From NCBI GenBank assembly GCA_021828805.1, contig JAJZCZ010000011.1, forward strand, positions 1 through 37,040: a DNA stretch of 37,040 nt, read 5' to 3'. The notes under the pieces were generated by a model. That model did not search any database, was not told where the DNA came from, and worked only from the letters and a program-made list of their open reading frames with translations. Position 1 is the stretch's first letter. Every line of letters starts with the position of its first letter. The position numbers were made by a program, and so were the translations under genes. Below, piece by piece: positions 13,612 through 28,264 of the stretch. Source of the DNA: Nitrospirota bacterium (GTDB lineage Bacteria; Nitrospirota; Leptospirillia; Leptospirillales; Leptospirillaceae).

Positions 13612-14340
13612 GTGGTCCAGCCACCTGATGCCAAGCTTTATGAAGGCAAGGCAAAAATCCTTTACGCCACAATCGACCCCCGTATTCTTGTCCAGGAGTT
13701 CAAGGACGACCTCACCGCCTTCAATGCTCAGAAGAAGGGAACCTTTTTCGGAAAAGGGGCGCTCAACTGCCAGATCTCGGCGGTTCTTTTCGAGCTTCTC
13801 GCCGCCCGGGGTGTGCCCGTGCACTTTCGCTCCCTGGAGACGCCCCGGCGTATGATCATCGACCGCCTCGAGATGGTTCCCCTCGAAGTCGTCGTGAGAA
13901 ATCGCGTGGCCGGCTCCCTGGCCAAGAGGCTCGGGATCCCGGAAGGAGAGGAACTCGCCTTCCCGGTGGTCGAGTGGTACTACAAGCGCGACGATCTCGG
14001 AGACCCCATGGTCAACCGTGACCATATCCGGGTTCTCAAGCTCGCCTCCGACGCCGTTCTCGACAAGATTCGTGCGATTGCCATCAAGACCAACGAGATT
14101 CTTCTTCCCTTCTACCGGGAGAGAGGGATCCTGCTCGTGGACATGAAGCTTGAGTTTGGCTGGAATCCGGCGGGAGAGCTTGTCCTGGGTGATGAGATCG
14201 ATGGCGATACGAGCCGTCTGTGGGATGCCGAAACCAGAGAGAAGCTCGACAAGGACCTCTTCAGAATGGATCTGGGATCGGTCAAGGAAGGATACGAAAA
14301 GATTTACGAAAAGGTGGTCGGACATGCCAACGAATCGTGA
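13612..14340 (+). CDS. purC: SAICAR synthase
   Basis: ATP-dependent ligation of aspartate to CAIR, producing the substrate of the upstream purB enzyme. A 242-residue single-domain form with KLYEGKAKILYATIDP (ATP loop), the substrate segment LEVVVRNRVAGSLAKR, and ILVDMKLEFGW followed by LVLGDEIDGDTSRLWD (metal/ATP region). The GTG start lies 3 bp after purB. The 3' end overlaps purS by 17 bp. Confidence 0.95.
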   Translation: MVQPPDAKLYEGKAKILYATIDPRILVQEFKDDLTAFNAQKKGTFFGKGALNCQISAVLFELLAARGVPVHFRSLETPRRMIIDRLEMVPLEVVVRNRVAGSLAKRLGIPEGEELAFPVVEWYYKRDDLGDPMVNRDHIRVLKLASDAVLDKIRAIAIKTNEILLPFYRERGILLVDMKLEFGWNPAGELVLGDEIDGDTSRLWDAETREKLDKDLFRMDLGSVKEGYEKIYEKVVGHANES

Positions 14341-17835: not shown

Positions 17836-18030
17836 GTGGCCGACAGTAACGCTCCCCTGAATCCGGACCTTTTGCCAAAATTTCTGTCCGGTGATGGAGA
17901 AAGAATGAAAAAGCTGGTCGATTCGGTGTTGAACCAGGTTCTGGAAGCCCAGATGGCCGATCATTTGGGGGCGGATTATCATGAACGATTGAGCGATCGG
18001 ACGGGTTACCGAAACGGATATCGGGAATGA
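17836..18030 (+). pseudogene. IS256-family transposase, N-terminal fragment
   Basis: A 64-residue stump from the GTG at 17836. The text LVDSVLNQVLEAQMADHLGA followed by ERLSDRTGYRNGYRE is the conserved N-terminal block of IS256/Mutator-type transposases, which are normally about 400 residues. The frame ends at TGA (18028-18030) right where the family continues with its Pro/Arg-rich block, and the DDE catalytic region is absent. No right terminal repeat was found before icd. It is a dead remnant between tRNA-Arg and the icd regulatory region. Confidence 0.82.
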
Positions 18031-18080: not shown

Positions 18081-18097
18081 ATGTGCGAATTTACACT
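18081..18097 (+). promoter_or_regulatory. Candidate enhancer site for the NtrC-type regulator (icd copy)
   Basis: ATGTGCGAATTTACACT, an imperfect GTG-N8-CAC dyad. The same motif, 15 of 17 bases, stands upstream of dabB in the same orientation relative to the gene. Its centre lies about 125 bp upstream of the -24 GG of the icd sigma-54 promoter, a normal distance for an enhancer-binding protein. Confidence 0.6.
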
Positions 18098-18212
18098 AAA
18101 TACCTTCATTAAGTGCTAATACGCTCTATTTATGCGTGCACTATCGCTCTCTATGGATTTCTAATTTTTTTAAATTTATTTATCCAAGAAGATTTGGATG
18201 ATGTGTTTTTTT

Positions 18213-18228
18213 TGGCACTTCTCTTGCT
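18213..18228 (+). promoter_or_regulatory. Sigma-54 (-24/-12) promoter of icd
   Basis: TGGCACTTCTCTTGCT fits the consensus TGGCAYRNNNNTTGCW at every fixed position except R (here T), with the required 10 bp between GG and GC. The transcription start would be about 18239, giving a leader of about 72 nt that contains a hairpin (CCGACC/GGTCGG around 18243-18268). Confidence 0.78.
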
Positions 18229-18310
18229 TAGCAGAGGATGCCCGACCCTTCAATGAAGAAAGGTCGGAAACACACCGGACTCAACGTCTGACGAATGGAG
18301 GTTTCAAACG

Positions 18311-19321
18311 ATGGGAAAACATGTCATCACGATGCTTCCCGGCGAGGGAACAGGGCCGGAAATTTGCGAAGCAGTCCGGAAGGTCATCGACCACAGCGGC
18401 GTGGAGATTGCCTGGGAGTACGAGGATATCGGTCTCGACTGCCTGGAAAAGCATGGAACTCTTCTTCCTGAGAAGACCATCAAGTCGATTGCAAAGAACA
18501 AGATTGCCATCAAGGGCCCCACGACCACCCCGATCGGGACTGGCCACAAAAGCGCGAACGTGACGCTTCGGAAACTCTTTGATCTCTACGCCAATGTTCG
18601 TCCGGCCAAGCTTATCCCCGTCCTCAAGCGTCCCTGGGACCAGATTGATATCCTGACTTTCCGGGAAAACACCGAGGATTCTTACGCAGCCATCGAACAC
18701 ATGGTCTCCGACGAGGTGGCTCAGTGCCTCAAGGTGATCACCTGGCCGGGATCTGTCCGGATCGCCGAGTTTGCCTTCAAGTGGGCCAAGGCCAACGGAC
18801 GCAAGAAGATTCAGTGCGTCCACAAGGCGAACATCATGAAGATGACCGACGGTATCTTCCTGGACGCCTTCCGCGAGGTGGCAAAAAAATATCCTGAGAT
18901 CGAAGCTGGTGACATCATCGTCGACAACTGCTGCATGCAGCTCGTGAGAAATCCCGCACAGTTCGATTGCCTCGTGCTCCCGAACCTCTATGGGGATATC
19001 CTCTCCGACCTCTGCGCCGGACTCGTCGGCGGACTGGGATTTGCTCCCGGCGCCAACATCGGTGACAACTGTTCCATCTTCGAGGCGGTTCACGGATCGG
19101 CTCCAAAATACGCCGGAATGAAGAAGGTCAACCCCTCTGCTGTCCTCCTGTCTGGAGTGATGATGCTTCGCTGGATCGGTGAAGAAGCCGCCGCGAGCAA
19201 GATCGAGAAGGGAATGAACAAGGTTCTGGCCGAAGCCAAGACCCTGACCTACGATGCCGGTGGTACTGCGTCGACCGACCAGTATGCCGAGGCCATCATG
19301 CGTGCTATGGACACCATCTAA
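18311..19321 (+). CDS. icd: Isocitrate dehydrogenase, catalytic subunit
   Basis: Interconverts isocitrate with 2-oxoglutarate and CO2; in reductive-TCA autotrophs the reaction runs toward CO2 fixation. A 336-residue protein of the isocitrate/isopropylmalate dehydrogenase fold: GPTTTPIGTGHKSANVTLRK (substrate Ser/Asn/Arg), FRENTEDSYAAIEH (catalytic Tyr125), catalytic Lys172 (HKANIMKM), metal Asp205, Asp229 and Asp233, and the cofactor loop FEAVHGSAPKYAG. Lys266-Tyr267 match the E. coli residues that select NADP. Thr121 stands where E. coli ICDH has its regulatory Ser113. It most resembles Thermus-type ICDH but lacks that enzyme's C-terminal domain, which appears to be the next gene. GGAGG precedes the ATG. 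Sigma-54 promoter upstream. Confidence 0.92.
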   Translation: MGKHVITMLPGEGTGPEICEAVRKVIDHSGVEIAWEYEDIGLDCLEKHGTLLPEKTIKSIAKNKIAIKGPTTTPIGTGHKSANVTLRKLFDLYANVRPAKLIPVLKRPWDQIDILTFRENTEDSYAAIEHMVSDEVAQCLKVITWPGSVRIAEFAFKWAKANGRKKIQCVHKANIMKMTDGIFLDAFREVAKKYPEIEAGDIIVDNCCMQLVRNPAQFDCLVLPNLYGDILSDLCAGLVGGLGFAPGANIGDNCSIFEAVHGSAPKYAGMKKVNPSAVLLSGVMMLRWIGEEAAASKIEKGMNKVLAEAKTLTYDAGGTASTDQYAEAIMRAMDTI

Positions 19322-19348
19322 GACCCCTACGAACGAAGGAGCTCTGTC

Positions 19349-19696
19349 ATGTTGACAAAAGCAACGACCGGTCGCGCAAAGCGGCCTTCAAAGCCCATTA
19401 CCCTCGTGGGTGTTGATGTTTATATCATCACTGAAAATGGTATTCCCCAGTTTGACGACTACGGCGCCTTCAAGATCGAGTTCATCTCTAACCGTGGCAC
19501 CAAGGTGTGGCCGGGTTATGTGAGCGAAGATCTCATGCTGGTCAACTGGTATCGTTGCCGCTTCATGGCGACCAAGACAGTGACCGATGCGGATGTGGAT
19601 ACCTTCCTGGCTGCCCTGACAAAGAAGTGGAAGTGGTCTGCAGCCCAGAAGCTCTGGAACTACGGAGACGAAGCAGGATTCAGCAAGGCCTACTAG
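19349..19696 (+). CDS. Stand-alone C-terminal domain of Thermus-type isocitrate dehydrogenase
   Basis: A 115-residue soluble protein, 27 bp after icd, with AAGGAG before its ATG. VGVDVYIITENGIPQ, FKIEFISNRGTKVWP, WYRCRFMATK and EAGFSKAY line up, in order and spacing, with the C-terminal domain that I recall of Thermus thermophilus ICDH (VGVDVFVETN, KMISNRGTQVYP, HYRCRF, EPGFTKA). There the domain is fused to the enzyme and makes inter-subunit contacts. Here it is a separate gene with its own ribosome site, not a frameshift product. It is probably a second subunit of the dehydrogenase. The homology is from memory and untested. Confidence 0.72.
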   Translation: MLTKATTGRAKRPSKPITLVGVDVYIITENGIPQFDDYGAFKIEFISNRGTKVWPGYVSEDLMLVNWYRCRFMATKTVTDADVDTFLAALTKKWKWSAAQKLWNYGDEAGFSKAY

Positions 19697-19726
19697 GACG
19701 CTGTTCACTCTGGCAGCTCTGTAAAA

Positions 19727-19757
19727 GGGAGGGGAGAAATCCCCTCTCTTTTTTTTT
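19727..19757 (+). terminator. Rho-independent terminator of the icd unit
   Basis: GAGGGGA (19729-19735), loop GAAA, TCCCCTC (19740-19746), extended by flanking pairs and followed by nine T. A second inverted repeat, CTTTTGG/CCAAAAG at 19760-19778, follows in the convergent gap. Confidence 0.92.
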
Positions 19758-19797
19758 GCCTTTTGGGGAGGCCAAAAGCGTCAGCCTGGGAGGCGGT

Positions 19798-21222
19798 TCA
19801 GGGCTCTTCGTCTGCCCCGCCCTTCTCTTCTTCCTCCTGGTCGGCTTTCAGGCGGCGGTCAAGAGCCCAGCGGCTGATGCCAAGTGCCTGGGCGGCCCGG
19901 GTCTTGTTTCCTCCCGAGCGGGCGAGAATATCGGCAATCAGTCGGCGCTCGATGCCATCGAGCGTGTCCGCTCCGATCCGGAATGGGAGGAGAAGACTGC
20001 TGGGATCGCTGTCTTCTGTCGGGGCCACGGGAAGAGGCTCAAAGCCGGAAGCGCGGAGGTCTGTCGGAAAGTGGCCCGGCTCGAGTTGGGTTCCGGAGCA
20101 GAAGAGGACGGCCCTCTCCACCAGGTTTGAGAGCTCCCGGATATTTCCGGGAAAGGAGTAGCTCTTTAAAAGCTTTTGGGCGGACGGAGAGATGCGAAGG
20201 ATCTTCTTTCGGAAGGTCTGTGCTGACAGGTGAAGGAAGCGCTCGGCCAGGGGAACAATATCGCCCACCCGGTCCCGAAGGGGGGGGATGGCGAGGGTCA
20301 CGACATTCAGGCGGTAGAAAAGATCCTCCCGAAACCGCCCTTCCTTGACTGCAACACGGAGATCGCGGTGGGTGGCCGCCATGAACCTGACATTGATGGG
20401 GAAGGGGGCGCCTCCACCGACGCGCCGGATGGTGCGTTCCTCGATGACCCGGAGAAGTTTGGCCTGAAGGGGCAGGGGAAGGTCACCAATCTCGTCGAGA
20501 AGGACCGTTCCTCCTTCGGCCAGCTCCACGAGGCCGATACGCCGTCCGGTGGCCCCGGTAAAGGAGCCCTTTTCAAAGCCGAAGAGCTCGCTTTCAAAGA
20601 GCTCGGAGGGGATGGCGGGGCAGTCCACTTCGATGAAGGGGCGGTCTCCGGAGGGGCCATTGTAATGGAGAACCTTGGCGACATATTCCTTTCCGGTTCC
20701 GGTCTCCCCCTGAAGAAGGACCGTCACCCGGTCATTTTCGACAAGTCCCGCTACCTGATCCCGCAAGGTCGCTCCTGCCGGGCTATCTGCAATCATGCGG
20801 TCGAGAGAGTAGCGACCGGACTGCCGGCTTGTCCAGTAGCGGGCCTCCCGGGAGAGCGCGAGAAAGCGGACAGCATTCGAGACGGAAAGAAAAAGCTCAT
20901 CCATGTCGATATTTTTCGAGACGAAGTCGAAGGCCCCGAGGCGCATCGCCTCCACCGCGTCCTTGACGGTCCCCCGGGCGGTGAGGAGGATGACGGGGAT
21001 ATCGAGGTCGGAGGAGCGGATTTCTCGAAGGAGATCAAGCCCCGACATTCCCGGCATGACGATATCCAGGAGAAGAATGTCGGGAGGGGCTGTCCGGAGA
21101 GCCTTCAGACCCTCTTCTGCGGAGGTGGCGGTCTCGACGGTGTAGCCCCGCTCGGAGAGGCGAAGGGCGAAGGCCTCCCGGATCAGAGGTTCGTCTTCCA
21201 CCAAAAGAATGTGTGAACTCAT
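19798..21222 (-). CDS. NtrC-family sigma-54-dependent response regulator
   Basis: A 474-residue activator with three domains. The receiver (1-120) has acidic pocket D10/E11 and phosphoacceptor D53 (LLLDIVMPG). The AAA+ domain (about 140-375) has Walker A GETGTGKE (172-179), the sigma-54 loop GSFTGA (219-224; canonical GAFTGA with Ala to Ser) and Walker [12 protein letters not shown] (about 237-246). A Fis-type helix-turn-helix ([22 protein letters not shown]) lies near the C-terminus. It binds enhancers and opens sigma-54 holoenzyme complexes with ATP. Its ATG overlaps the histidine-kinase stop by 4 bp. Both sigma-54 promoters in this window are its likely targets, including that of its own operon. 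Confidence 0.95.
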
Positions 21223-23279
21223 GGAGTCTCCTGTTCCTGTCTCAGGGGAAGCCAGACTGTGGCTTTCACCCCTCCTTCCCCGGGGCTGTCGATCAGCATG
21301 TGTCCCCGATGGCGGTCGACGATGTCACGGCAGATCGTGAGTCCCAGCCCCACACCCTTGGCCTTGCCGTGGGTGAAGAAGGGCTCATTGATACGTTTGA
21401 GAAAGGCCGGAGGAATCCCGGGCCCGGTGTCTGTGAGCGAGACGCACACCCCTTCTCCTGCGGGCCGGTTTTCCCGGGCGAGATGGATGGTGAGGGATCC
21501 TCCTCCAGCGGACATGGCGTCGAGGGCATTCATGGCAAGATTGAGAAAGACCTGCTGCAAAGGACCCCGGGCCCCTTCCACGGAAGGAAGGGCGCTCTCC
21601 TGGGTGATCCGGACGGAGACCTGTCGCTTCTTGAAGGTTTCGGAGAGGAGGGACTGTGTGTCCTGGATGAGTTCATCGAGGGAGATCTCGGAGAAGCTGA
21701 AGCTTCTTGGCTTGAGTTGGGAAAGATGAGACTCAAGAAGCTCATCGATTCTTCTGGCCTCCCGGGTGATGAGCGTGGCCTGGCGGCGAAGGGTCTCCGG
21801 AAGATCCCGGCTTTGCCCCATGTGGTCGGCAAGGCTTCCGATCCCGATCAGGGGGTTCCGGATTTCGTGGAGCAGGCCTCCGGCAAGCTGGCCCACCAGG
21901 CGGATCTGCTCGGTCTGCCGGAGGGCCTCGAGAAGACGCTCACGCTCCGAGAGATCGGTCAGGATGGCGAGAAAATACCGGATGGTACCGTCGGGATCCA
22001 TCACGGGGCTGATATTTTCCCAGACGAGACATTCTGTCTTGTCCCGCCGCCGGTTGATGAATCGTCCGGTAAAGGGTTTGCCGGCGAGAAGGTTTTGCCA
22101 GAGGGTGTCATAGAACTCCGGGGGCTGGCGGCCGGATGAAAGAATTCTCGGGGTGCGTCCGATCGCCTCCTGCCGGCTGATTCCCGACATCCGTTCCATC
22201 GCGGGGTTCCATTCGAGGATCATTCCCCGGGTATCGGTGAGGATCACCCCGTCCTGGAGCTGGGCAAAGAGTCTTTTATAAAGAGAGAGCTGTGTTTCCT
22301 CCCTTTTCCAGCGTTCAAGCAGGGTCGCGAAGGTATTGGCGACCGTCTCAAGAAAGGCGATCTCGGTCGGATCAAAGTGCCGGACGCTGACGGTATGCGC
22401 GCTCATCGCTCCCAGAACCTGGTTCTGGAACATCATGGGGACACTCACCCCCGAGCGGACGTTGTGTTCGGAGAGGAGCTTGGAAGGGGAAAAGCGCTTT
22501 TCGGTGAGAAGGTCCTCCACGATGACTGCCGTCTTCTGTCGGATTGCAAATCCCGCCTGAGAGTGGATTCCTCCTTCCTGGACATAGCTTCCGACAAGTC
22601 CGGATCGCCAGCCGACTCCGGCCATCAGGTGGAGCAGGGGATCGGAGTCTCCCGGAATCAGGATCTTGCAGAACTCCACGTCAAGGGCATGGGCGGTTTC
22701 GCGGGCGGCTACATCAGCGATTTCGGTGATCTCCGCCCCTTTGACGGCGAGGTGGGCGATTCGGCCGAGGACTTCCTGATAACGTCCAAAGGCCAGAGTT
22801 TCCCGTGCCAGAACCTCAAGATCGGTCATGTCCTGAACATGGATGAGGGCCTGATCCTTACCCCCCTCCATGGAGGGGAGCCGGATGGTCTGGCAGTCGA
22901 CAATACGCGGCTCCCCCTTGGGGGTTCGGGCGGCAATCTTGCGACGGAGACCGGTGTTACCGGCTAAGACCTCCCGGGCCTGGTCCTTCAGGAGAGACTC
23001 GAGGGAGCGAGAACCTGTCGAGGAATTGACCGAAAGCCCTTTAAGAATTCTTTCGCACCCGGGAGAGGCAAAGTGAACCGATCCCTTGTGGTCAATCAGG
23101 CAGAACCCTCCCTCTCCCTCCTCTTCCGGATCCCGAGAGAGGATCCGTTCGAGGGGAATCGTAAAGGAGAGTGTCCCGAGCGTATCTTTTCTGGGTGCTT
23201 TCACATCAGACCTCATTTTTTCCTGCTGAGAGGGGGGGAGGAAGGTAAGAGCCCCTCCTCCCTTTCGGATACGGCTCAT
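21219..23279 (-). CDS. Soluble PAS-GAF-PAS sensor histidine kinase
   Basis: A 686-residue kinase with no membrane segment, so the stimulus is cytoplasmic. Order: PAS-like domain (about 55-150), GAF (about 190-325), PAS (about 335-450, with GVILTDTRGMILEWNPAMERMSG), HisKA with phospho-His about 471 (GGLLHEIRNPL), and HATPase_c with N box NLAMNALDAM, G1 DTGPGIP and G2 KGVGLGL. The chosen ATG overlaps the dabA stop by 4 bp (ATGA), mirroring the other junctions in the operon; a later ATG at 23216 with a weak AGG is possible, and an earlier one at 23330 lies inside dabA. It probably phosphorylates the adjacent NtrC-type regulator. The ligand is unknown; an inorganic-carbon-related signal is inferred from the operon. 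Confidence 0.9.
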   Translation of the reverse strand: MSRIRKGGGALTFLPPSQQEKMRSDVKAPRKDTLGTLSFTIPLERILSRDPEEEGEGGFCLIDHKGSVHFASPGCERILKGLSVNSSTGSRSLESLLKDQAREVLAGNTGLRRKIAARTPKGEPRIVDCQTIRLPSMEGGKDQALIHVQDMTDLEVLARETLAFGRYQEVLGRIAHLAVKGAEITEIADVAARETAHALDVEFCKILIPGDSDPLLHLMAGVGWRSGLVGSYVQEGGIHSQAGFAIRQKTAVIVEDLLTEKRFSPSKLLSEHNVRSGVSVPMMFQNQVLGAMSAHTVSVRHFDPTEIAFLETVANTFATLLERWKREETQLSLYKRLFAQLQDGVILTDTRGMILEWNPAMERMSGISRQEAIGRTPRILSSGRQPPEFYDTLWQNLLAGKPFTGRFINRRRDKTECLVWENISPVMDPDGTIRYFLAILTDLSERERLLEALRQTEQIRLVGQLAGGLLHEIRNPLIGIGSLADHMGQSRDLPETLRRQATLITREARRIDELLESHLSQLKPRSFSFSEISLDELIQDTQSLLSETFKKRQVSVRITQESALPSVEGARGPLQQVFLNLAMNALDAMSAGGGSLTIHLARENRPAGEGVCVSLTDTGPGIPPAFLKRINEPFFTHGKAKGVGLGLTICRDIVDRHRGHMLIDSPGEGGVKATVWLPLRQEQETP

Positions 23280-25717
23280 TGTAACGGCTCGGGAAGAGAT
23301 CCTGGAACCAGACGATAAAGAAGGATCCATCCCCCCTTCACAAGATTGGTGAGGAGCGTGTGGCGCCCAACGATCCGGGTGATGGCATCGGCGGGTGCGG
23401 CCACAAGAACATGGAGACGCAGGGGCTCATGAATGAACTTCTCCCCGTCGTGGAGGGACTGGAGCGCCAGTCCCGTCCGAAGGTCTCCTCCGTTCCCTTC
23501 AAGGACTCCCACCGCCCCTCCGACCACATTATGCAGGACTTTGTTTCCGCTGCCGAAGTGGGCGTTATCAACCACTGATCCGTAGTATTGCATGTTAATC
23601 CAGTGTCCCACCACCAGGGGGCCGGTCAGGATCAGCTCAAGGGAGGCAAAGTCGGGATCGGTTTGCCAGTCATAGTCATGGAGAAAGGCCCGTCCTTGAA
23701 GATCGATTCCCCGGGTAAGGCTGCGGGGAGCGACGATGAAAGAGGCATTTCCGGCCAGGGCCCATTCCGGGCGTACCTCCGACCAGCTTTTCGCCTTCTC
23801 TGAAAAAAGATCAAGAAGTCCCGTGCTGCTCTCTTTTCCTGCGCCCATGTTAAAGCGGAGGATACGCTCCTGTCTCGCCACCTCTCCAGCCTTTTTCAGG
23901 TCCCGTTCGAGGCGGGAGAGATCTTCCCGGTGGCTCGCAGGAAGGCGGTCGGTTTCGAAGAAGGTGACGCGGTCGGTGACGGTATCGTGAAGCGCCGGGA
24001 CGAAATACGTTGTCTTGGGGATGGTGATTCCCAGGCCAACGAGGCTTTCCCGGGTCATCTGGTCGTTTAACAGGGCTGCCGCAATGCGGGCGCTGGCTTC
24101 ACCGCTCTGTCCCGCGCAGGCTCCGCAGTCGAGGGCGCTGGCCTGGGGGTTGTTGACGGTGGTCGATCCGTGCCCGACAAGAAGAACAATACGGGGAAAG
24201 CGGTCGGTGATTCCCATATTTTTTAACACCGACAGGGCAACACGGGGGCGATCCTCCTGGGGGAGGCCCTTTCCCTCCTCGAAAAAGTCGAGATCCGGAG
24301 CCAGAAGGGAGCTTTCTTCCCGCTGAAGTCCGCGATGCCGGGGCGGGCCATTTTCTATTCCGAGCCCCAGGGCGCCGGCCAGCAGCTTTCCGGCTGAAAG
24401 AATACCGGCGGCCTCCACAAAGGAGAAGGTGGAAGATGCCGAGCTTTTGAAGATCTTCCAGGTCTTGTCGAGTCCAAGACGAACCTCACGCTTTCTCTCC
24501 ATGTCAACGGGAGAGGTCGTCGCGTGGGAGTGTGGACGCTCCTCAATATCATAGGCCGGAGAGAACAGGACGGGAAGGTGGGCGAACGACCCGTTTGTTC
24601 CAATGGAGCTCACCGCGGCCGGGATGCCGAAAAATCCCGCGAACCCTCCGGTGTCGACATCGGGAGCCACGGATTCCAGGGCGCGACGGAAGACCTCGGA
24701 CCGGACATCGATGCAGAAGATTGCCCGGGCCCGGGCGGTGGTTTCCGAAGAGTGAGTCGCGGCCTTGGAGAGACGTGAGAAGAGGGGCGCCCGGTATCCA
24801 GCCTCAAAGGCGTACTGGAGCACGCGATCAATTTCCTGTTCCCGGTCAAACTTCTCCTCTCTCGCCTTGCGATTTTTGAGATAGCTCTCAACTTGCTCCT
24901 CCCGGAGCTCCTTGAGGGCTTCTCCGGCGAAGGAGGTATAGAGAATGTATTCCCAGGCCATGCGGATGGCGAGAATATCCTCCATCGAATTGTCATTTTC
25001 TCCCCGGAGCTCCGCCTGCCAGAGGCGATATCGAGACCATGCGGCCCATCCCCCGACGGACAGGAGAGCGGCGTGGAGCCGGTCCTCCTCAAGATCCGGG
25101 GGAAGAGGAATCACGTCGACCGCTTTCTGGATCATTGCGGCAGGATTGTCTGGAAGACCGGCGATGATGTCCTTTGCCTTTCGTATCCCCAGAAAGAGCG
25201 GACCCCGGTCGATGAGGGTCTGGGCGTGCCAGGCACTATAGAGCGGAAGGGACTTCCACGGGTTTTTCCAGAGGGCCTGCCCCATATCGAACCAGGAGGC
25301 CAGAACCGGTGTGATGCGATCGATGACGAGGGTCTCCCAGGGAGCCCCGTCGAGCCGGCTCCGAATCGGAGGAATCAGAAGGGGGGCGGGAGGAATCTGG
25401 AGAGCTGGGTGTTCGAGCTCCCAGAGAACGTCGCTGGCCTTCAGAGAGCTTTTCAGATCGGCAATGGCGCTCTCGATGTGAGACCGGGTGATGCGGCCGG
25501 AGCGGATCTGGTCCTGGAAGTAGTCGCGTGACATGGAAAGCCCGGATCCAAGAATCCGCCGCAGCCTCCGGTCAACCTCCTCCATGCGTTCATCCACCAT
25601 CCCGAAATAAGGGCTGACGGCGACAAAGTGCTTGAGAGGCCAGAGCGGGGCGATCCGTTGGCAGGAGCGCTTGACAAGCTCGGAGAGAGACGGCTGGAGG
25701 AGTGAGGTCGTCGTCAT
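23276..25717 (-). CDS. dabA: DabA, beta-carbonic-anhydrase-like subunit of the DAB inorganic carbon transporter
   Basis: An 813-residue DUF2309/UPF0753 protein. With DabB it forms a membrane-associated complex that converts CO2 to bicarbonate vectorially, raising cytoplasmic inorganic carbon. Zinc and catalytic residues expected for DabA are present: C335 and D337 (FCIDVRSE), H516 (VGHGSTTVNN) and C531 (SALDCGACAG); the known Halothiobacillus set is Cys, Asp, His, Cys with near-identical spacing. The N-terminal block APLWPLKHFVAVSPYFGM is typical. A longer open frame extends upstream, but this ATG starts the conserved domain and overlaps the dabB stop by 4 bp (ATGA). Confidence 0.93.
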   Translation of the reverse strand: MTTTSLLQPSLSELVKRSCQRIAPLWPLKHFVAVSPYFGMVDERMEEVDRRLRRILGSGLSMSRDYFQDQIRSGRITRSHIESAIADLKSSLKASDVLWELEHPALQIPPAPLLIPPIRSRLDGAPWETLVIDRITPVLASWFDMGQALWKNPWKSLPLYSAWHAQTLIDRGPLFLGIRKAKDIIAGLPDNPAAMIQKAVDVIPLPPDLEEDRLHAALLSVGGWAAWSRYRLWQAELRGENDNSMEDILAIRMAWEYILYTSFAGEALKELREEQVESYLKNRKAREEKFDREQEIDRVLQYAFEAGYRAPLFSRLSKAATHSSETTARARAIFCIDVRSEVFRRALESVAPDVDTGGFAGFFGIPAAVSSIGTNGSFAHLPVLFSPAYDIEERPHSHATTSPVDMERKREVRLGLDKTWKIFKSSASSTFSFVEAAGILSAGKLLAGALGLGIENGPPRHRGLQREESSLLAPDLDFFEEGKGLPQEDRPRVALSVLKNMGITDRFPRIVLLVGHGSTTVNNPQASALDCGACAGQSGEASARIAAALLNDQMTRESLVGLGITIPKTTYFVPALHDTVTDRVTFFETDRLPASHREDLSRLERDLKKAGEVARQERILRFNMGAGKESSTGLLDLFSEKAKSWSEVRPEWALAGNASFIVAPRSLTRGIDLQGRAFLHDYDWQTDPDFASLELILTGPLVVGHWINMQYYGSVVDNAHFGSGNKVLHNVVGGAVGVLEGNGGDLRTGLALQSLHDGEKFIHEPLRLHVLVAAPADAITRIVGRHTLLTNLVKGGWILLYRLVPGSLPEPLQ

Positions 25718-27411
25718 GGCATCGCCTTTCTCGTTGGAGGGACCGGGGGTGTGACCAGAGGTCCACGGAGGGCCTGGTGGCTTTCCGGGGATTCTGGCAA
25801 GGCGGCACGATGGCCTGCAAAGAGTCGGTTCAACAGGAGGTCGAGATAGAGACCCGAGCCCGCATGAACATAGAGGCGCCTTAAGAACGAGGTCGAGGAG
25901 GAACGGGGGACGCTTTCCTCGATCCAGAGAAGTCCGAGAAAGCACAGACCACTGAAGACAAGCAGCGCCGTCTGTACCGGAGTTTCCGGAAGGGGGACGG
26001 AGGGAAGGTCCTGTCCGAGAAAATGCTCAAAAAGACGGTGCAGTGCGGCCGTGGCCAGGGCCACGGCAAGGACAAGACCTGCTGTGGGAAAGAGAAGGGG
26101 AAGCCCCTTGCGTCCTTCGGCCGAGAGTCCTGTCAGGAGAAGACGGGCCAGGGCCACTGACAGGATCATTCCCAAGAGGAAAAGGGCTGGCTGGTGGAGA
26201 ATGTCGATGCCGATCACCTTTGAGGCGGTCAGTGTCAGGAGAATTCCTGTTCCCAGCGCCAGAAACATGCGGCCAGGAGCGCCACCAAGACGGGGAGCCA
26301 GAGTGATTTCCGGACCCCGGTAGGGCTCCACCACGCTTCCCGATGCAAGAAAGGCATGGGCCTTATAGAGAGAGTGTGCGATGATATGCATGACGGCAAC
26401 GCCGGTCATCCCCAGTCCACACTCAAGCAGCATGAAGCCGATCTGCGCGCTGGTGGACCAGGCAAGGGATCCTTTGATGTCGCTTGAGATCATCATGGCC
26501 AGTGCTGAGACAATAATCGTGGTCAGGGCATTGAGGATGATCATGTCCCGGAAGACGGTGGCTCCGGAGAGGAGGGGCCAGCTCCGGAGAAAGAGGATGG
26601 TGCCGGAATAGATAAGCCCGGCATGCATGAGGGCCGAGACCGGAGTCGGGGCCTCCATGACCTGGATCAGCCATCCCTGCAAAGGGAACTGGGCGCTCTT
26701 TAAAATAACCGCCACACAGAGAAGTCCCGCGGCCAGGATAAGAGAGGGATCCGCTATGCTTGTCCCGTGGGACATGGCCTGCCGGAGTCCCGAAAAGGTG
26801 TCGACATGGAGTGTCCGCGCCAGAATGGCGAAGGCTCCGAAGAGGGCGACATCGGCCACCCGGTGGAGGAAGAACTTCTTCCGGGCGGCGAGCCGTGCCT
26901 TGGCCCGGTCCGGATAAAAGACAAGGAGACGGTGGAGGGTTAACCCCTTGGCCACCCAGGAGATCAGAAAAGCCCAAAAGTTGTCGACCACCACCATGGT
27001 GAAAAAGAATCCAAGGGTAAACCCGAGATCTCCCATGAAGCGGATTTCCCGTGCGTCACCGTCCATGTAGCGGGCCGAAAAACGCGCCACAACAAAGCCC
27101 ACGAAGGCCACGAGAACGGCCATCAGAAGGCTGAGGGAATTCAGTCCGACAAGGATCGAGAAAGAGCCCAGCCCCAAGGGAAGCGGGAGAGAGAACCAGG
27201 AGAGGGAGTCTGTCATTCCTGCCTGGTCGGCAACAAGCGCGAGGAAGGCTGCGAGAAGGGCAAACCCTGCCGCAAAAACAGTGCTTCTTTTGATAAAAAG
27301 ACGATACTTTCTGTCCTGAAAGAAAAGGGACAATAGACCCGTGGCAAGAAGTGGCCAAGGCAGGATCAGAAGAAGCAGGGATGCAGAGATATGGAGAGGA
27401 TGAGAAATCAT
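25714..27411 (-). CDS. dabB: DabB, NuoL/MrpA-like membrane subunit of the DAB transporter
   Basis: A 565-residue protein with about 13-15 predicted membrane helices and the proton-conducting antiporter core: VDNFWAFLISWVAKGLTLHR, FFLHRVADVALFGAFAIL, VILKSAQFPLQGWLIQVMEA and TPVSALMHAGLIYSG (Lys, Glu and His of the proton path). In DAB systems this subunit supplies proton motive force coupling to the DabA carbonic-anhydrase-like subunit. Next to dabA and without other nuo genes, it is DabB rather than complex I. AAAGGAG lies 6 bp before the ATG. It is first in the dabB-dabA-kinase-regulator operon, about 60 nt downstream of a predicted sigma-54 transcription start. Confidence 0.93.
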   Translation of the reverse strand: MISHPLHISASLLLLILPWPLLATGLLSLFFQDRKYRLFIKRSTVFAAGFALLAAFLALVADQAGMTDSLSWFSLPLPLGLGSFSILVGLNSLSLLMAVLVAFVGFVVARFSARYMDGDAREIRFMGDLGFTLGFFFTMVVVDNFWAFLISWVAKGLTLHRLLVFYPDRAKARLAARKKFFLHRVADVALFGAFAILARTLHVDTFSGLRQAMSHGTSIADPSLILAAGLLCVAVILKSAQFPLQGWLIQVMEAPTPVSALMHAGLIYSGTILFLRSWPLLSGATVFRDMIILNALTTIIVSALAMMISSDIKGSLAWSTSAQIGFMLLECGLGMTGVAVMHIIAHSLYKAHAFLASGSVVEPYRGPEITLAPRLGGAPGRMFLALGTGILLTLTASKVIGIDILHQPALFLLGMILSVALARLLLTGLSAEGRKGLPLLFPTAGLVLAVALATAALHRLFEHFLGQDLPSVPLPETPVQTALLVFSGLCFLGLLWIEESVPRSSSTSFLRRLYVHAGSGLYLDLLLNRLFAGHRAALPESPESHQALRGPLVTPPVPPTRKAMP

Positions 27412-27479
27412 TCGGGGCTCCTTTTGCTAGGTCGCTCCTGGCGAAAAAGTCCGGGAGAGACTGTTTGGGCCCCTTCTAT

Positions 27480-27495
27480 AGCAACTGGGATGCCA
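27480..27495 (-). promoter_or_regulatory. Sigma-54 (-24/-12) promoter of dabBA-kinase-regulator
   Basis: On the minus strand TGGCATCCCAGTTGCT matches TGGCAYRNNNNTTGCW except for R (here C), with exact -24/-12 spacing. The predicted start is about 27470, 59 nt before the dabB ATG. The last gene of the operon encodes the cognate type of activator. Confidence 0.8.
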
Positions 27496-27581
27496 GTTTG
27501 TTAAATTGCTGTGCAGTAAAAATTTAGATGTTTTTCTGTTCGATTTTTCTGGGAACAGGCAGCGTGAGTGTGCGTGTAAAA

Positions 27582-27598
27582 AGTGTATTTTCGCACAT
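27582..27598 (-). promoter_or_regulatory. Candidate enhancer site for the NtrC-type regulator (dab copy)
   Basis: On the minus strand ATGTGCGAAAATACACT, 15 of 17 bases identical to the site before icd. Its centre lies about 96 bp upstream of the -24 GG of the dabB sigma-54 promoter. It also forms one arm of a wider inverted repeat, TGTGCG (27569-27574) and CGCACA (27592-27597). The rest of 27499-27700 is AT-rich. Confidence 0.6.
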
Positions 27599-27775
27599 AT
27601 CGTGCAGTATTGACGAGAACCTTGTCCACATTAAATTTTTTGAGGATAAAGATGAAAAATGAAGTAAATATGATTCTTTCGAATATGATAACGCCAAGAA
27701 GTAAAGAGACATACGAATGCTTGAGAGTTTTTCCCCTTGAAACAAAGCGGGGAGTCAGCCATGGGGAGGGACGAT

Positions 27776-28264
27776 ATGCGTGAGTGGAATATTGTCGCAC
27801 TCGACCCTTCCGAGATTGCTTCATTTTTGGAGGGACAGGCCAGGGCATTTATGTCCCACGACAAGCTCTTTGAAGTATCCGTCTGGACCCAGGAAAGCGT
27901 CGAGGAGTGCCAGGCAGAGATGGCCCATGCCCGGATCCTTGTTGCCAAAGGCCCCGACGGAAAGGTATGGGGAGGTATCAGGGGAAGAAATGTGGAAGGC
28001 GTCTGGGTGATCCGGAAGCTTTATGTTGTACCGGAGGCGAGGAAGAAGGGACTGGCCAAGGCCCTCATGGAAAGTATTGAGGCTCTCGCGCCCTCTTCAT
28101 GTCATAAGATTTCCGTGTGCACCATGTTAATCTTGGGAGAGAATGTCCGTCTCTTCCTTGGGTTGGGATACTCTCCCGACTTTCTGATGCCAGACCATCA
28201 CAACCATCTTAATTTGATCTGTTTTCGCAAGACGCCGCCTCAGTACGAACCCACGAGAAGGTGA
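27776..28264 (+). CDS. GNAT-family N-acetyltransferase
   Basis: A 162-residue protein of the Gcn5-related fold, transferring acetyl from acetyl-CoA to an unknown amine. Strand 4 and motif A are clear: VWVIRKLYVVPEARKKGLAK followed by ALMESIE; the pyrophosphate loop is R-K-K-G-L-A. Motif B-like ENVRLFLGLGYSPDF follows. The ATG at 27776 has GGAGGG about 6 bp upstream; an in-frame ATG at 27761 and TTG at 27737 are alternatives. It is transcribed divergently from dabB and shares that intergenic region, but I cannot say whether it belongs to the same regulon. Confidence 0.85.
   Translation: MREWNIVALDPSEIASFLEGQARAFMSHDKLFEVSVWTQESVEECQAEMAHARILVAKGPDGKVWGGIRGRNVEGVWVIRKLYVVPEARKKGLAKALMESIEALAPSSCHKISVCTMLILGENVRLFLGLGYSPDFLMPDHHNHLNLICFRKTPPQYEPTRR

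Follow-up and report, generated by a model that had tools for sequence, protein, structure and literature searches.

Two-component systems such as NtrB/NtrC, AtoS/AtoC and ZraS/ZraR combine a histidine kinase (HK) with a regulator made up of receiver, AAA+ and Fis-type helix-turn-helix (HTH) domains, which works with palindromic upstream sites and -24/-12 promoters. CbbR, a LysR-type regulator also found in PMC2607301, is linked to the carbon-fixation genes that it controls, and sigma-54 regulators of Nitrospira lie beside the nxr genes that they are thought to control (PMC6606698). Here, we analyzed a 37,040-nucleotide stretch of DNA (hereafter the window) from a Nitrospirota bacterium (Leptospirillaceae; contig JAJZCZ010000011.1, positions 1-37,040; assembly GCA_021828805.1, 78% complete), in which a kinase and an NtrC-type regulator are encoded at the end of a dab operon, facing the isocitrate dehydrogenase (ICDH) genes icd and icdC. 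This pair is likely to be a sigma-54 switch for both its own operon and icd. The layout, with a receiver-AAA+-HTH regulator, upstream palindromes, -24/-12 elements and RpoN, would be textbook sigma-54 control, shared with NtrB/NtrC and its like but with another palindrome and with DAB and ICDH as targets. Compared with CbbR, it differs in the use of sigma-54, a kinase-regulator pair and an enzyme of the reductive tricarboxylic acid (TCA) cycle instead of the Calvin cycle; the Nitrospira regulators, from the same phylum, serve nitrite oxidation, whereas this one would serve carbon acquisition. The mechanism looks canonical; what appears to be new is the combination of targets and its occurrence in two families. 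Among the best 25 of 117 matched NCBIfam models, the regulator reached the cut-off of none, the best being AtoC (435.8 of 714 bits).

Part of the locus has apparently been described before. The 'och' operon of Leptospirillum CF-1, in which genes for NuoL, DUF2309, a hypothetical protein and dihydroxy-acid dehydratase (DHAD) are co-transcribed and induced 2.8-23.5 fold by chromate, appears to correspond to this dabB-dabA operon, its genes being ordered as in our locus L085, and its DUF2309 gene raised the chromate and H2O2 tolerance of E. coli (PMC9080137). In the available excerpts of that paper these are described as oxidative and chromate stress genes and DUF2309 is not termed DabA; the words sigma and isocitrate are absent from the article. 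In planktonic L. ferrooxidans, no gene was induced more strongly than that for NAD-ICDH (>20-fold), with dab unnamed there (PMC2996932); stand-alone nuoM/nuoL copies of N. moscoviensis were lowly expressed (PMC6606698); and two sigma-54 regulators were down in the NaCl transcriptome of L. ferriphilum, where they are not tied to the dab-encoded regulator (PMC9053815). The excerpts of PMC2607301, PMC5772234, PMC9053815, PMC13144422, PMC12542776 and PMC12342949 do not mention such a regulon. A first-pass annotation of the window, made from its letters and open reading frames (ORFs), knew of no description of the dab and ICDH pairing; we found none either in the excerpted openly licensed literature, nor any regulator of DAB pumps in reductive-TCA autotrophs.

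Little is known of how reductive-TCA autotrophs keep their carbon supply in step with fixation. If confirmed, the switch would couple the uptake of carbon to a cycle of CO2 fixation; as far as we know, no regulator has previously been assigned to the reductive TCA cycle, nor has sigma-54 control been described for a CO2-concentrating pump. It provides a candidate regulator, exact predicted sites and target genes in the lineage of cultured iron oxidisers and, presumably, nitrite oxidisers. An operon so far attributed to chromate stress could also be seen in a different light, and the strong induction of ICDH, the most induced gene in planktonic L. ferrooxidans (PMC2996932), might be accounted for.

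Predicted sigma-54 promoters and enhancer palindromes

In the window, minus-strand dabB, dabA, kinase and regulator genes with overlapping ends face plus-strand icd and icdC (Table 1). The -24/-12 elements reported in the first-pass annotation before icd and dabB lie where it placed them, with one mismatch each, and are the only two window matches to the -24/-12 pattern at up to one mismatch (0.38 expected; two reached in 5 of 100 shuffles). The 17-bp motif that it found shared by both promoters is likewise present as described, with copies ATGTGCGAATTTACACT (18081-18097, plus strand) and ATGTGCGAAAATACACT (27582-27598, minus strand) identical at 15 of 17 bases and no further window match even at three mismatches (0.07 expected; two reached in 1 of 100 shuffles). 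Its distances to the -24, about 125 and 96 bp, hold roughly when counted from the motif centre (124 and 95 bp), while 115 and 86 bp separate the end of the motif from the -24. Since this window-only evidence for elements and motif is moderate (5/100 and 1/100 shuffles), a comparison across genomes was needed to decide.

The printed promoter sequences of relatives display a 14-bp palindrome, GTGCGA-N2-TCGCAC, as the conserved element, and its right arm is worn in the window copies. We therefore dropped the 17-bp non-palindromic motif: a shared site does exist at both promoters, but it is really this palindrome, and three sites rather than one precede icd. Scoring in bits by a weight matrix, for which dabB promoters from other genomes served as the training set, put five window sites above 10 bits, four of them in the icd and dab promoters. 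The fifth, a 13.8-bit palindrome at 13819-13832 within ORF 13612-14340, is probably due to chance.

Conservation and specificity within the family

The family sample comprised 21 genomes with 18 icd loci, one of which (L050) is cut at its 5' end, leaving 17 testable. A -24/-12 element precedes icd in 15 of these, at -91 to -101 from the ATG. The two icd genes without it belong to G014, which has two DabA genes and in which the regulator is not matched at 1e-100, and to G020, whose icd is on another contig than the regulator and dab. As for dabB-like genes, 24 family loci were found, of which three are cut (L020, L023, L028) and four (L029-L032, 33-35% identical) were left out of the scan; the element was present in 14 of the 17 scanned, -82 to -131 from the start, and the other three are distant copies (32-40% identity). 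The palindrome lies about 76-110 bp before the -24 of dabB in the family, and icd has up to three copies in the window's genus. When the dabB-trained matrix was applied to 15 family icd promoters, with 200 shuffles for each, 11 had sites at p <= 0.01. A plain rule, which asks for a -24/-12 preceded by seven or more matching letters of the eight in GTGC-N6-GCAC, was passed by 13 of 17 scanned dabB loci. Conservation of both motifs upstream of orthologues, the check proposed in the first-pass annotation, was thus borne out across the family, with weak icd sites in 4 of 15, and it recurs in a second family. Three icd genes without a nearby regulator (G014, G020 and G158, the last from a third family) lack the combination of enhancer and -24/-12.

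In the 21 whole genomes, the pattern GTGC-N7-CAC followed after 41-101 bp by GGCAY-N6-TGCT had 10 matches, all upstream of dabB, and the reversed pattern had none. An icd-tuned pattern had nine, three at dabB and six spread over five icd promoters, against none in controls. The palindrome alone, with one mismatch allowed, occurred at 28 places versus 27 in the control, and dabB and icd promoters made up nine of the 28 and three of the four perfect ones. A global palindrome regulon was ruled out on this count. Because the paired patterns match only dabB and icd promoters and the palindrome alone shows no excess over the control, the regulon looks small and dedicated, not global.

Linkage of the kinase-regulator pair with dab and icd

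Sixteen family loci with the regulator were fetched, and icd is also present in 14 of them. The full set of dabB, dabA, kinase, regulator, icdC and icd, arranged as dabB-dabA-HK-regulator facing icdC-icd, is found in eight (L080, L083, L084, L085, L091-L094), and the remaining eight are partial or cut by contig ends. By linkage and co-occurrence the dab-encoded regulator is the best candidate for the controller of both units, which supports, as a prediction, what the first-pass annotation had suggested.

Domain searches agree with the gene identities given there for dab, regulator and icd. The regulator has the domain set of a group I NtrC-type activator (PF00072, PF00158, PF25601, PF02954), and its GAFTGA loop is the one-residue variant GSFTGA; an alignment of 38 orthologues has this Ser in at least 85% of the sequences and is invariant at the remaining five positions. 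The His-box of the kinase and the receiver Asp of the regulator are conserved in the orthologue alignment; the partner kinase would phosphorylate the regulator. One RpoN match was found in the assembly (PF04552, 1.3e-59). No membrane domain is among the Pfam matches of the kinase, which is apparently cytoplasmic. In a structure model, kinase residues 66-170 show a PAS-like order of strands and helices at a predicted local distance difference test (pLDDT) score of about 83-90. The kinase ligand could not be inferred from the model, in which the GAF core has a pLDDT below 50 and the best 50 PDB rows are mostly PAS-GAF photoreceptors and DosP at a root-mean-square deviation of 8-21. DabA (PF10070) and a NuoL-like DabB give the composition of a DAB pump, and the dab products are predicted to form a CO2-hydrating or bicarbonate-accumulating pump. 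The dabA gene overlaps dabB by ATGA and the kinase gene by 55 bp.

Recurrence in a second family

We extended the comparison to 198 genomes of the phylum, 82 of which have DabA. One other family (f10, probably Nitrospira-like) has the regulator, 58-61% identical, in 24 genomes, and in 21 of these it lies within 13 kb of dabA. Fifteen f10 genomes have an icd that is 81-86% identical; all 15 carry the regulator, 11 of them within about 16 kb of icd. Each of these icd genes has a -24/-12-like element about 79-86 bp before it and, further upstream by 127-130 bp (11 promoters) or 148-152 bp (four), a GTGC-N6-GCAC-like site. The combined score beats shuffles in all 15 (300 each; p <= 0.007 in 14 and 0.04 in G144), with training sites taken from dab and SulP promoters, not icd, and themselves located with the first family's matrix. 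The sole icd of a third family (f25), in genome G158, where the regulator is not found at 1e-125, has no such element before it. Loci L185 (12515-12748) and L231 (downstream of 9070) come from f10 genomes with the regulator but without icd; L185 retains an icdC-like stretch, which suggests that icd has been lost.

In 60 phylum loci (1.05 Mb) we found 23 pairs of enhancer and -24/-12, versus four in reversed sequence, and for ten of them the gene downstream is dabB, dabA or a SulP gene confirmed by Pfam (L183, L191 twice, L221, L223, L233, L237, L239, L248, L255). SulP, a stress-protein-like ORF (named by eye) and icd follow one another in L224, L237 and L240. Lower-scoring pairs also occur before an ORF of 265 amino acids (aa) resembling phosphoadenosine phosphosulfate reductase and before one of 790 aa, leaving room for possible further targets. 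Of 20 dab loci sampled outside the window's family, four have the regulator (L181, L183, L185, L186) and 16 have none. Two Pfam-confirmed SulP genes of other families (L191:16348-18069, L248:2353-4152) also have similar palindromes and -24/-12 elements, and their genomes encode a second activator type, 45-49% identical. Further such pairs lie in L250 and L260.

Isocitrate dehydrogenase and the direction of carbon flow

The ICDH of the window is split: icd and the next ORF, icdC, match successive parts of the same chain of a Thermus-type ICDH (18311-19696), and the two lie side by side in relatives of two families. The icd product belongs to the isocitrate dehydrogenase family (PF00180) and is nearest to the NAD/Thermus type, not the E. 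coli type; it would work in the carboxylating direction. According to Table 1 of PMC10880623, as excerpted, ICDH uses CO2 and DAB is taken to deliver bicarbonate. The carboxylase subunit for 2-oxoglutarate or pyruvate (PF02436) was found in 0 of 21 family genomes and in 7 of 14 control genomes, and we therefore rejected a route in which bicarbonate goes straight into 2-oxoglutarate carboxylase plus ICDH, as in Hydrogenobacter. Since DAB gives bicarbonate, ICDH takes CO2 and the family has no 2-oxoglutarate carboxylase candidate, the link between pump and ICDH would be a coordinated low-CO2 response, not a direct hand-over of substrate.

Proposed mechanism and alternative explanations

The comparison documents putative promoters and enhancer sites, their conservation with both targets, and the linkage and co-occurrence of the regulator. 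On this basis we propose that the PAS-GAF-PAS histidine kinase and the NtrC-type regulator that close the dab operon act together as a sigma-54 switch. The most likely trigger of the kinase would be inorganic-carbon shortage, given that the targets with the best support are concerned with inorganic carbon or with fixing it. The phosphorylated regulator would bind GTGCGA-N2-TCGCAC palindromes about 76-152 bp upstream of the -24/-12 and, with RNA polymerase-sigma54, start dabB-dabA-HK-regulator, giving the DAB pump and positive autoregulation, as well as icd-icdC, which would provide the reductive TCA cycle with its ICDH. Autoregulation, deduced from the overlapping genes of the window, is among the weaker parts of the proposal. 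More tentatively, such a system may extend through the Nitrospirota as an inorganic-carbon regulon, in which one dedicated kinase and sigma-54 activator would read inorganic-carbon (or 2-oxoglutarate) status and jointly set bicarbonate uptake (DAB, and SulP in the second family) and the ICDH step.

Several observations weigh against this proposal. The matrix score was not significant at 0.01 in 4 of 15 family icd promoters (L041-L044, p 0.05-0.67), though half-sites are visible by eye, and the plain rule was passed by only 9 of 17 family icd loci, with L045 (G020) and L047 (G014) failing. At 1e-130, this icd is missing from nine f10 genomes that have the regulator. Thirteen of the 23 phylum pairs have no confirmed carbon gene downstream: three are not followed within 450 bp by any ORF of 80 aa (L189, L191 at 5554 on the plus strand, L242) and the others precede unrecognised or non-carbon ORFs, e.g. 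in L229. The genomes are related and many are incomplete metagenome-assembled genomes, so the counts are not independent. The palindrome also resembles CRP-type sites, and no published expression data against CO2 were found. Finally, in reverse transcription PCR of Leptospirillum CF-1, sua5 was not co-transcribed with dab (PMC9080137, excerpt), and in L085 and similar relatives the Sua5 gene separates dab from the kinase gene; beyond the arrangement of the window, the kinase and regulator may therefore be transcribed apart from dab.

The regulon could be real and respond to another signal, redox or oxidative stress (or 2-oxoglutarate/nitrogen status), with pump and ICDH induced for redox or C/N balance. 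This explanation overlaps ours and differs from it in the signal alone, and we regard it as a genuine possibility, if not one we would expect. GAF and PAS domains are common redox or ligand sensors, and the GAF domain of the kinase holds a Cys that is invariant in 38 orthologues. The L085-like order dabB-dabA-hypothetical-DHAD (by eye) is moreover that of the chromate-induced CF-1 operon (PMC9080137, excerpt). The chromate effect could, however, be indirect, and the best-supported targets in the second family are carbon genes (dabB, dabA, SulP-family transporters, icd). The published data fit an inducible system, yet allow a redox signal too.

It is unlikely, in our estimate, that icd is co-regulated for oxidative supply of 2-oxoglutarate rather than CO2 fixation, with the pump meeting an anaplerotic demand for bicarbonate. 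The absence of PF02436 from the 21 family genomes and the mismatch between CO2 use by ICDH and bicarbonate delivery by DAB (PMC10880623 Table 1, excerpt) would fit this explanation, as would a suggestion in the excerpted PMC2607301; that suggestion was drawn from E. coli-like icd genes, however, and the window gene is closest to the NAD/Thermus type.

That the sigma-54 promoters are right and another protein, either a different NtrC-type activator or a CRP-family protein, occupies the palindrome seems improbable. Each family genome has 15-38 first-look activator candidates, the palindrome can be likened to CRP-type sites, and the genomes of the SulP genes with similar sites carry the second activator type. 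However, the regulator is linked to both targets and co-occurs with the icd promoter across two families, and the rest of the genomes show no surplus of the palindrome such as a global CRP regulon would give. The distance of these sites from the -24, about 76-152 bp upstream, is typical of sigma-54 activators. Lastly, promoter likeness by chance or shared ancestry without regulatory meaning can hardly account for the data: two -24/-12 matches did arise in 5 of 100 shuffled windows, but similar positions are kept in orthologues, control matches to the paired patterns are zero genome-wide and the arrangement recurs in a second family.

Features of the window and neighbouring genes

The coordinates of the genes and predicted sites of the proposed switch are given in Table 1.

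Table 1 Genes and predicted regulatory sites of the dab-icd locus in the window
Feature	Position	Strand	Remarks
icd enhancer site 1, GTGCGAATTTACAC (predicted)	18083..18096	+	Core of the 17-bp motif; 17.9 bits; 130 bp before -24 start
icd enhancer site 2, GTGCTAATACGCTC (predicted)	18113..18126	+	10.4 bits; 100 bp before -24 start; site at -101 in L034, L035
icd enhancer site 3, GTGCACTATCGCTC (predicted)	18136..18149	+	12.8 bits; 77 bp before -24 start; site at -78 in L034, L035
sigma-54 -24/-12 element of icd, TGGCACTTCTCTTGCT	18213..18228	+	One mismatch (R position)
icd, isocitrate dehydrogenase catalytic part, 336 aa	18311..19321	+	PF00180 (Iso_dh); best solved relative 2d1c, residues 18-353
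icdC, separate ORF equal to C-terminal domain of bacterial ICDH, 115 aa	19349..19696	+	PF18324; 2d1c residues 389-492; beside icd in relatives
NtrC-type response regulator / sigma-54 activator	19798..21222	-	Response_reg, Sigma54_activat, AAA_lid_14, HTH_8; GSFTGA loop
Histidine kinase	21219..23330	-	N-terminal PAS-like part (structure model); GAF, PAS, HisKA, HATPase_c (Pfam)
dabA	23276..25717	-	PF10070, 1.3e-246; ATG at 25717
dabB, NuoL-like subunit	25714..27411	-	PF00361/PF00662 (Proton_antipo)
sigma-54 -24/-12 element of dabB-dabA-HK-regulator, TGGCATCCCAGTTGCT	27480..27495	-	One mismatch (R position)
dab operon enhancer site, GTGCGAAAATACAC (predicted)	27583..27596	-	13.9 bits; 101 bp before -24 start; -76 to -110 in relatives

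A second, longer DabA with a NuoL-like partner is encoded elsewhere in the window's assembly (G000:C113; L212:540-6726), and its relative in genome G004 (L024) has no -24/-12 element. In L085 (4252-8022) and some other relatives, ORFs for a 300-aa protein, a dihydroxy-acid dehydratase-like protein and a Sua5-like protein (names by eye) lie between dabA and the kinase gene. Directly 5' of the icd promoter region, a truncated Mutator/IS256-type transposase fragment is found at 17842-18027 (PF00872, profile positions 20-66). At the other end of the locus, a GNAT acetyltransferase gene (27737-28264) is divergent from dabB, and the intergenic stretch common to the two holds the dab enhancer.

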